64,000 nt of DNA from Halanaerobium saccharolyticum subsp. saccharolyticum DSM 6643 (GTDB taxonomy: Bacteria; Bacillota; Halanaerobiia; Halanaerobiales; Halanaerobiaceae): assembly GCF_000350165.1 (NCBI RefSeq), contig NZ_CAUI01000023.1, positions 434,001-498,000 on the forward strand, written 5' to 3'. Made by a program: the position numbers and the translations under genes. Positions 10,407-13,385 of this stretch are shown here, piece after piece. The notes under the pieces are model-generated. The model saw only the letters and a program-made list of their open reading frames with translations. It ran no database searches and had not been told where the DNA came from. The first letter of the stretch is position 1, and each line of letters begins with the position of its first letter.

Positions 10407-12281
10407 TTAGGAAGACTTTTTATCTTTTTTAAAATCTACCTTTTTAACATTATCTCTTCTTGGTTGATAAGTATTAACCAGATCAACTAAAGCAGAAATA
10501 ATGTCTCGTTCAGCTGCTTTTTCTGCAAGTTCTGATAAACGCTCAAGATGTTTATTCAGAAAATCTTGATCTACAGCTTCCAGATTATTAATAAAGATTC
10601 TTTCGTGTTCTGTTGCAATATTATCTTCTGTATCACATAAAAGCTCTTCGTAAAGCTTTTCTCCAGGACGAAGTCCAATCACATCGATATCTATATCTTC
10701 ATAAGGAGTTAAACCTGAAAGTGAAATTAAATCCTCAGCAAGCTCCATGATTTTAACCGGTTCTCCCATATCAAGAACAAAAACCTCTCCTCCCTGACCA
10801 AGAGCACCAGCTTGAATAACCAACTGTGAGGCTTCAGGGATAGTCATAAAATAGCGGGTTATATCCTTGTGAGTAACTGTTATAGGTCCACCATCAGCAA
10901 TTTGTTTTTTAAATAAAGGAATTACACTACCCTGGCTGCCTAAAACATTACCAAAGCGTACTGCCATAAATTTAGCCTTAGAATTTTTGTTTATAGTCTG
11001 AACAACCATCTCAGCTGCTCTTTTGGAAGCTCCCATCACATTAGTAGGATTTACTGCTTTATCGGTTGAAATTAAAACAAAACGATCAATTTCAGATTCT
11101 GCAGCAGTTTCAGCTAAATTTTTGGTTCCTAAAATATTATTCTTAACTGCCTCTTCTGGACTGGTCTCCATTAATGGTACGTGTTTATGAGCTGCTGCAT
11201 GGAAAACCACATCTGGAGAATGTTTCTTAAATACCTGTTCAAGTTTATTTTTATCTCTGATACTACCGATGATAGAGATTAAATCTAGTTCTGGATATTG
11301 ATTTTTTAACTCTCTCTCTAAAAAATAAGTAGTGTTTTCATTTATATCTAAAATAATAATTTTTTTAGGGTTGAATTTTGCTACTTGACGACAGATCTCT
11401 GAACCAATTGATCCTCCACCACCACTGACTAAAACAGTTTTTCTTGCCAGATAAGCAGAAATTTCATCGGAAATTAAATCAACTTGATCTCTACGTAAAA
11501 GGTCTTCTACTTTAACCTCTCTAATCTGGTTTAGAGAAACATCGCCTTTTAAGATTTCATAAACTCCAGGTACAATTTCTACTGTTACATCTTTTTTATT
11601 ACTTAATTCATAAAATCTTTTAATTGTTTTACCCTCTGCAGAAGGAACTGCAATGATTACTTCATCAACAGAATACTCTTCAATCAACTGTGGTATGTTC
11701 TCACTTTTACCTAAAACCTTATTGCCGTGAATCTCTAAAGACTGCTTATTAGGGTCATCATCTACCAAACCGATTATTCTTTTTCCTATTTCAGGATGTT
11801 TTTGAATCTCTCTAGTAATTATTTCTGCGGCATCACCTGCACCAATGATTAAAACTCTACTTTTTAACTTCATATTCTGATTACGGTTTAAATAATCTTT
11901 TAATACTCTCAAACCAAAGCGCATTCCACCCAGCAGAAAGATATCTGTCATTAAATTAATCGCAATAATGCTGCGGGGAAAACCAACTCTGAAGAAATAT
12001 ATATATATTACAAATAGAGTGTTAATTATAATAGTTGCTTTAAAAATAGAATAAAGCTCTGACATGCTGGCATACTGCCACATCTTGTTATAAAGTGAGG
12101 AAAAATATAAAACCAAAAATGAAATAACCGTTATTGCAACTAAGTAGTTAATCTGAAAGTATTGCATCCAGCCGTCGTCAAAGCGGAGGATAAAAGAAAA
12201 TAGTACTGCCAGATTGATTAACACAAGATCAATAATAATTAACCTCGGCTTTTTGTATAATTTTAATAGATATTCAATCAT
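10407..12281 (-). CDS. Membrane UDP-GlcNAc 4,6-dehydratase, WbpM/PglF/CapD type
   Basis: 624 residues. Four N-terminal membrane helices (~12-32, 45-62, 80-98, 105-122), a first Rossmann domain (VLIIGAGDAAEI at 143-154) and a catalytic SDR domain (VLVSGGGGSIGSEI at 283-296). The catalytic STDK is at 405-408 and the usual YxxxK is replaced by Met416-x3-Lys420, as in the long FlaA1/WbpM group, which makes UDP-4-keto-6-deoxy-GlcNAc for bacillosamine, QuiNAc or FucNAc. GGGAG precedes the ATG. It would normally neighbour the sugar transferase (27.1-27.6 kb) and the SDR at 35.7 kb; here the sugar-acid island separates them. Whether the final sugar is QuiNAc, FucNAc or bacillosamine is not decided here; no PglE/PglD-like genes are visible. 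Confidence 0.93.
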   Translation of the reverse strand: MIEYLLKLYKKPRLIIIDLVLINLAVLFSFILRFDDGWMQYFQINYLVAITVISFLVLYFSSLYNKMWQYASMSELYSIFKATIIINTLFVIYIYFFRVGFPRSIIAINLMTDIFLLGGMRFGLRVLKDYLNRNQNMKLKSRVLIIGAGDAAEIITREIQKHPEIGKRIIGLVDDDPNKQSLEIHGNKVLGKSENIPQLIEEYSVDEVIIAVPSAEGKTIKRFYELSNKKDVTVEIVPGVYEILKGDVSLNQIREVKVEDLLRRDQVDLISDEISAYLARKTVLVSGGGGSIGSEICRQVAKFNPKKIIILDINENTTYFLERELKNQYPELDLISIIGSIRDKNKLEQVFKKHSPDVVFHAAAHKHVPLMETSPEEAVKNNILGTKNLAETAAESEIDRFVLISTDKAVNPTNVMGASKRAAEMVVQTINKNSKAKFMAVRFGNVLGSQGSVIPLFKKQIADGGPITVTHKDITRYFMTIPEASQLVIQAGALGQGGEVFVLDMGEPVKIMELAEDLISLSGLTPYEDIDIDVIGLRPGEKLYEELLCDTEDNIATEHERIFINNLEAVDQDFLNKHLERLSELAEKAAERDIISALVDLVNTYQPRRDNVKKVDFKKDKKSS

Positions 12282-12430: not shown

Positions 12431-12455
12431 AAAACCTGACTAGTTGTCAGGTTTT
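12431..12455 (-). terminator. Terminator of the 30-residue peptide gene
   Basis: Perfect 10-bp stem AAAACCTGAC / GTCAGGTTTT with a 5-base loop; on the minus strand the stem runs into a TTTTTT tail. It is symmetrical enough to act in both directions, but the only gene ending here is the small peptide gene to its right. Confidence 0.85.
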
Positions 12456-12479
12456 ACAATCAAGCTTTATTTTCGTTTA

Positions 12480-12572
12480 TTATCCCCAAACTTTCAAAAG
12501 AAATGAGGTATATGCAGTCACAGTACCTGCAGCAACTCCGACTTTTGCAACATTTTTCATTACTTTTTTCAT
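12480..12572 (-). CDS. Small cationic hydrophobic peptide (30 residues)
   Basis: ATG at 12572 with AAAGGATG 10 bases upstream, stop TAA at 12480, and a strong terminator 25 bases later: a complete minimal gene. The peptide starts MKKVMKNVAKVGVAAGTV and ends SFLLKVWG. Four Lys in the first half, then a hydrophobic stretch long enough for one membrane helix, with no Asp or Glu. This shape fits small membrane peptides, type I toxin-like peptides or leaderless bacteriocins, but no family is recognised and no export or immunity gene is adjacent. Upstream (12573-12695) there is only AT-rich DNA before the GntR stop. Reality as a gene is supported by ribosome site plus terminator; the role is unknown. 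Confidence 0.55.
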   Translation of the reverse strand: MKKVMKNVAKVGVAAGTVTAYTSFLLKVWG

Positions 12573-12695
12573 TAATGATCATCCTTTCTTATTTTCTTAT
12601 AAAGTTATAAAGTGATCTTATAATAAGTTTATTATATATTATTTTTTTAATTTGTCAATTAAGACAGTTATAAAACAAATTATCTATAATTTATT

Positions 12696-13385
12696 TTAAG
12701 AAACAAAATAAGCAGGGAATTTTCCCTTTAATACTTCTAGATCTTTATAAACATATTCAATATGATTTTTAACCATTTTTGTAGCCTTTTCAATATCTCT
12801 TTCTTCAATAGCTTTTATTAATTTTTTATGTTCATCTAAAGTATCTCTAGTTCTTAAATCTAAATCAAGTTTTAATTTTCTAATTCTATGATAATCAAAA
12901 CTGAAATCATTTATTAGTTCCCAAGTATATTTAAAACCATTTCCCAAAAAGAAATATTCGTGTAGCTTATTATCATGATAGCTAAATTCCTTTAATCGCT
13001 CATTGTCTACCGCTAATTTTTGATTTTTAAAATTAGAATCTAAAAAAATAAAATCTTTTTCAGTAAAATTATTACAAGCTCTTTTTACCGCCTCAGTTTC
13101 TATAGTTGAACGAAGAAAAACAGATTCTTTTACTCGTTCTAAATCTATTTTTGATATATATGTTCCACTCTGAGGATAAACATCAATTGAACCTTCACTG
13201 GTTAATCTAGATATTGCATCTCTAATTGGGGTTCTACTCATTTTTAATTTTTCTTCTAATTCTGATTCTTTAATACGTAATCCTGGTTCTAAGTTTAAAT
13301 CTAAAATATTACTTTTAATAACTTTATAAGCTGTTTCTTTTGCATTAAACTTTTTTAAATCTTCATTAATCATTAATTCATCCAT
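12696..13385 (-). CDS. GntR/FadR-type (FCD) transcriptional regulator
   Basis: 229 residues. The N-terminal winged helix includes the GntR recognition region (KMSRTPIRDAISRLTSEGSI at ~48-67, then the YPQSGTYISKI wing), followed by an all-helical FCD effector domain (~85-225) with the metal-binding pattern Asp/His/His (HDNKLHEYFFLGN, DTLDEHKKLIKAIEERD, MVKNHIEYV). FCD regulators typically bind hexuronates or related acids and repress catabolic genes. AAAGGA precedes the ATG. It lies at the distal end of the sugar-acid island, behind the GldA-like gene, with an AT-rich 130-base spacer that could hold its own promoter. It is a paralogue of the regulator at 23.8 kb. Confidence 0.92.
   Translation of the reverse strand: MDELMINEDLKKFNAKETAYKVIKSNILDLNLEPGLRIKESELEEKLKMSRTPIRDAISRLTSEGSIDVYPQSGTYISKIDLERVKESVFLRSTIETEAVKRACNNFTEKDFIFLDSNFKNQKLAVDNERLKEFSYHDNKLHEYFFLGNGFKYTWELINDFSFDYHRIRKLKLDLDLRTRDTLDEHKKLIKAIEERDIEKATKMVKNHIEYVYKDLEVLKGKFPAYFVS

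Follow-up and report, generated by a model that had tools for sequence, protein, structure and literature searches.

What does a short stretch of the minus strand encode between a gene that we take, from its translation, to be a GntR-type regulator (12696–13385, minus strand) and one that, also from its translation, is presumably a CapD/FlaA1-like nucleotide-sugar epimerase (10407–12281, minus strand), and how might its expression be controlled? The window, by which we mean the whole 64,000-nucleotide stretch of DNA analysed here, had been described at this place, in a sequence-only reading, as containing a tiny but complete gene whose product is a cationic, membrane-like peptide.

A complete transcription unit on the minus strand

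The ribosome site, ATG, stop codon and terminator claimed for the gene were all located on the minus strand, where positions 12658–12431 form a complete monocistronic unit consisting of promoter, leader, Shine-Dalgarno (SD) sequence, 30 codons and terminator. Its features are as follows.

12631–12658, minus strand: sigma-A type promoter, TTGACA-16-TATAAT, 12/12 match
12609–12617, minus strand: 5′ arm GAUCACUUU, complementary to the SD (AAGG-A-UGAUC), 9 predicted pairs (MFE fold, covariation test)
12576–12616, minus strand: shared leader, comprising the 5′ arm, three AUAA(G/C) repeats 8 nt apart and the SD (model match, E 1.4e-8 in this genome)
12577–12589, minus strand: SD region AGAAAGGATGATC, from sequence a strong ribosome site
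12480–12572, minus strand: 30-codon gene, MKKVMKNVAKVGVAAGTVTAYTSFLLKVWG, with ATG at 12572–12570 and TAA at 12482–12480
12431–12455, minus strand: intrinsic terminator, from sequence, AAAACCTGAC-AACTA-GTCAGGTTTT followed by a T tract

The promoter is an addition to the earlier reading, which had overlooked it, and promoters matching at 11–12 of 12 positions with a spacing of 16–17 bp are found upstream of most of the other members described below. The terminator at 12455–12431 has 10 counted pairs, a 5-nt loop and a T-rich tail, and a stem-loop with a T-rich tail was found by script at 7 of the 10 family loci.

The 30-residue peptide is conserved in Halanaerobiaceae

Protein and profile searches turned up eight homologues in related genomes and, at G000:C22:704069-704158, a second copy of the gene in the window's own genome; every one is exactly 30 aa long. 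The family thus comprises ten 30-aa loci in Halanaerobium and two other genera of Halanaerobiaceae, with profile E-values of 7.5e-7 to 1.6e-17 in one genome. Its consensus is MKKVMKKxAGAGAAVGxxxAYGAFLVxxWS, in which M1, L25 and W29 are invariant and G12 and G16 nearly so. Substitutions are biased toward silent sites, with a pooled pN/pS of 0.43 over the eight genus members and values of 0.17–0.30 for close pairs (0.17 for the closest), and by this pattern the family is under purifying selection. A chance ORF can be rejected because exactly 30 codons are kept at all ten loci, as the profile E-values and pN/pS also indicate; the search for conserved homologues that had been proposed as a check on the gene therefore came out in its favour.

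The peptide has a positively charged N terminus and a hydrophobic stretch at about residues 10–26, its net charge ranges from +1 to +5 across the family, and AlphaFold2 predicts a single helix over residues 2–29 (mean pLDDT 88). These features, together with the conserved homologues, bear out the description of a cationic membrane-like peptide. The accompanying remark that acidic residues are absent is true of the window copy, but elsewhere in the family two members have one or two Glu. Judged by its conservation, the 30-residue peptide is a real gene product of membrane-like character, and it is predicted to insert into the membrane.

No match at the curated cut-off was found for the 30-aa peptides in Pfam, NCBIfam or PHROGs, no convincing match outside Halanaerobiaceae among 398 genomes of the phylum, and no relatives among the plasmids and phages searched. 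The flanking ORFs vary from locus to locus and we recognised none of them as an immunity or export gene, for which reason we disfavour the bacteriocin-like role that was one of three originally suggested.

A leader with AUAAG repeats precedes unrelated tiny genes

Comparison of upstream sequences places the identical leader type upstream of the genus copies of the 30-aa gene, and a pattern search of these genomes finds it also before tiny genes unrelated to the 30-aa one, some of them in tandem pairs. The leader is about 45 nt long and reads roughly (AUAAGNNN)x2-AUAAG-AAAGGRUGAU, with a consensus near ACCTTT-ATAAGACT-ATAAGAAA-ATAA-GAAAGGGTGATT in which the repeats are 8 nt apart in most members. 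An earlier leader model scores 34.1 bits in the window. Sequence models of the leader give strong matches in many Halanaerobiales genomes and in the sister family f11 of class Halanaerobiia and no matches in families f8, f9 and f10, and in a 299-genome sample of the phylum the matches fall in Halanaerobiia members only. The SD alone was considered as the common feature and rejected: a short SD-only pattern has 1–11 matches per genome, many of them before tiny genes, but it also matches ordinary genes, where the full repeats are absent. None of the leaders searched matches an Rfam 15 family at that family's gathering score, and the library of papers searched yielded nothing relevant.

Among the loci fetched, all 41 distinct leader matches of at least 22 bits preceded ORFs of 28–57 aa. 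Because the model was trained on tiny-gene leaders, part of this association arises by construction, yet 9 of these 41 are in no training set and still stand before ORFs of 28–52 aa. Matches scoring under 21 bits are a mixture in which ordinary genes also occur. At L031 the script chose a later ATG, the true ORF being the 30-aa one, and L208, among the 41, has a TTG start. The ORFs behind the leader are of at least four unrelated kinds.

Kind A: the 30-aa peptide of the window
Kinds B, C and D: amphipathic peptides of 31–42 aa
Kind E: membrane peptides of 28–29 aa with an invariant D and an invariant PQL motif (L202, L207, L234, L176, L177)
Kind Z: single zinc-ribbon proteins of 50–57 aa, CxxC...CxxC (L170, L172, L173, L178, L180, L208, L222)
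Singletons: 36–50 aa
Tandem pairs of tiny genes (42 aa + 32 aa): L090 9677–10000; L093 10326–10640 (reverse-complement coordinates); L071 1531–1845

In reverse protein searches, all six full-length homologues of the kind E peptide sit behind the leader, as do nearly all homologues of the amphipathic kinds B, C and D; one leader-poor homologue, at L266, was examined. A protein search found no kind E peptide in the window's genome, and the one zinc-ribbon member scanned matched general zinc-ribbon Pfam models only weakly, below cut-off. In each of the three tandem pairs, both tiny genes have a separate leader copy.

Two further observations concern these loci. At L266 (H. salsuginis), around 1390–1625, most AUAAG repeats are lost and the SD-side complementarity is kept (TCACTAAAAGGAGTGA), making it a natural leader variant. 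The tandem pairs at L090 and L093 lie directly upstream of a purine nucleoside phosphorylase-like gene.

The leader has a noncoding relative in family f7, where six loci in five genomes (L182, L187, L230, L231, L236 and L237; genomes G035, G025, G019 twice, G031 and G028) begin with its module in the form AACCCCUUAUAAGANCAUAA...AUAAGAAAGG, or in one close to it, and have no comparable ORF. In this RNA a 5′ CCCCUUAUAA pairs with a conserved downstream UUAUAAGGGG, giving a long stem, and the 3′ end is T-rich. In some loci it is apparently convergent with a histidine-kinase-like gene.

The 5′ arm covaries with the ribosome site

The arm at the 5′ end of the leader is complementary to the SD, and the two change together. 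Kind A has arm CAUCU with GGAUG, kind B has AAUCAU with AUGAUU, kinds C and D have AAUCACU with GGUGAUU, and one zinc-ribbon gene has CGUAACC with GGUUACG. True arm-SD pairs are predicted to be more stable than swapped ones, at –6.9 versus –5.8 kcal/mol in 28 leaders (p 5e-5) and –5.9 versus –5.1 in 37 leaders (p 5e-5); in the 37-leader test, the script shortened the SD of A_L031, an error that counts against the effect. When swaps are confined within peptide families, p is 0.015, with kinds A and B significant and kinds C, D, E and Z not significant. Arm-SD complementarity is thus covarying, while the pairing register slides between members.

Predicted SD accessibility in 24 leaders is lower than in shuffled leaders (0.48 versus 0.56, Wilcoxon p 0.009), with 16 of the 24 lowered and 8 showing no drop; for the gene in the window it is 0.32, compared with 0.62 for shuffled leaders. 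If the window leader is folded with the first codons, the SD hairpin is the MFE fold and an outer stem also covers the AUG, but when the full-length transcript is folded a different structure has the lowest energy. The stem that hides the SD closes a long A/U loop and is weak; being the MFE fold in the leader with first codons but not in the whole transcript, the hairpin is best seen as weak and tunable. We found an RNA thermometer unconvincing, since warming from 15 °C to 50 °C raises the predicted SD accessibility only from 0.25 to 0.40.

The repeats could in principle be read in DNA or in RNA. In every member tabulated, the last repeat is 18–22 nt before the ATG, whereas the distance from the –10 box to the ATG, where a consensus promoter is present, ranges from 53 to 89 nt. 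The second genes of tandem pairs have their own leader, mostly without a good promoter. A DNA operator acting at the promoter is disfavoured by the first of these findings, as it is the spacing to the ATG that the repeats hold constant, while that to the –10 box varies, and both together point to a leader that acts on the mRNA.

A candidate regulon for tiny proteins

The gene, its conservation, the leader, the link of the leader to tiny genes at good scores and the covarying complementarity were computed directly. The explanation that we prefer, and to which we give an even chance of being right, is a tiny-protein regulon common to Halanaerobiia in which translation of a single-helix membrane peptide is gated by its leader. 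The small chromosomal gene would be strongly transcribed as its own unit, and its product would be a 30-residue single-helix membrane peptide with a basic N terminus and a Trp near the C terminus. The 5′ arm of the mRNA would pair weakly with the ribosome-binding site across the loop of AUAAG repeats and thereby partly hide that site, and a putative trans-acting factor (an RNA-binding protein or sRNA) reading the repeats would shift the balance of pairing. One leader would govern tiny proteins of unrelated sequence across Halanaerobiia and, since it is common to them, the peptide would be one output of a shared translational response, perhaps with a role in stress or adaptation.

Because the leader is common to several unrelated kinds of tiny gene across the class, this may be an undescribed system for the control of small proteins. 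Its most specific form, in which an undescribed post-transcriptional regulon of Halanaerobiia uses a putative RNA-binding factor to read (AUAAG)3 leaders in which the ribosome site is hidden, with the f7 noncoding RNA as its decoy, we advance tentatively and with somewhat less than even confidence; the decoy role itself is only a suggestion.

The same leader might instead be a constitutive module for high expression, with a 5′ stem-loop that protects the mRNA and a strong SD but no switch, and the tiny proteins would then be abundant small structural proteins. The mostly 11–12/12 promoters, the long SD and a weak hairpin that reduces SD accessibility only moderately are what such a module would be expected to have. 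We nevertheless think it unlikely, because covariation maintains base pairing over the SD, whereas constitutive translation would require the opposite, because the conserved AUAAG repeats at fixed spacing are left without a role, and because the leader also occurs inside the second cistrons of tandem pairs, where it would not lie at a 5′ end. Tandem pairs, along with the differing genomic neighbourhoods of the 30-aa gene, would suit a leader and promoter that duplicate as a cassette whose coding parts have diverged or been replaced and share no regulatory function; conservation of the leader at class level and compensatory changes in the arm are unexpected for a neutral remnant, however, and the coding kinds too are conserved from genus to genus, so we give this reading little chance.

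Similarly improbable, in our view, is a type I toxin-antitoxin pair in which the peptide is the toxin, its SD is hidden and an antisense RNA is the antitoxin; a toxin was another of the roles first suggested. The size of the peptide, its hydropathy and its one predicted helix are those of such a toxin, and the hidden SD and the second copy in the same genome also fit. A simple consensus scan for the antisense RNA that had been proposed as a check did return promoter matches of at least 10/12 at six of the ten loci, but their positions are unrelated and the other four loci have none; the antitoxin might in principle be encoded in trans. It is this lack of a conserved antisense promoter over the gene, and the occurrence of the identical leader type before zinc-ribbon and amphipathic proteins, which are not toxin-like, that make the toxin less likely, and the lack of plasmid or phage relatives also counts against it. 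Among the three roles first suggested, a small membrane regulator fits best.

Annotation usually overlooks tiny proteins, and it is rare to have a handle on how they are regulated. Since, at good scores, the leader picks out nothing but genes of 28–57 codons across the whole class, it can serve to find unannotated small proteins, and it also hints at a control circuit that they have in common. Two questions follow: which molecule binds to the AUAAG repeats, and in what conditions are the tiny proteins produced?

Comparison with known systems

Small membrane regulators of bacteria include those of the KdpF, CydX and AcrZ kinds. The peptide of the window resembles them in having about 30 residues and one predicted helix and in being chromosomal and conserved in a lineage, but its gene stands alone and has no Pfam or NCBIfam match. 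Synteny gives no hint of a partner complex, since the peptide is encoded by a stand-alone unit in varying neighbourhoods.

With type I toxin mRNAs of the TisB, Hok and Fst kinds (PMC8309996), the locus has in common a tiny hydrophobic single-helix peptide and an occluded SD. It differs from them in that the consensus scan shows no conserved antisense RNA signal and that there is no link to mobile elements, and in that its leader is common to proteins that are not toxin-like.

The closest working analogy is with Csr/Rsm-type translational regulons that have a decoy sRNA (CsrA/CsrB; PMC7652899), and we draw it as an analogy, claiming no membership for the Halanaerobiia leader. The motif there is GGA, whereas here GGA or GGG occurs in the leader only within the SD itself and what is conserved is an AUAAG repeat spaced at 8 nt. 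The Halanaerobiia leader targets tiny genes only, its trans-acting factor is putative, and the noncoding RNA with repeats is present in one family (f7) only. What the two would share is a short motif repeated beside the SD in many leaders, together with a noncoding RNA that carries the same repeats.
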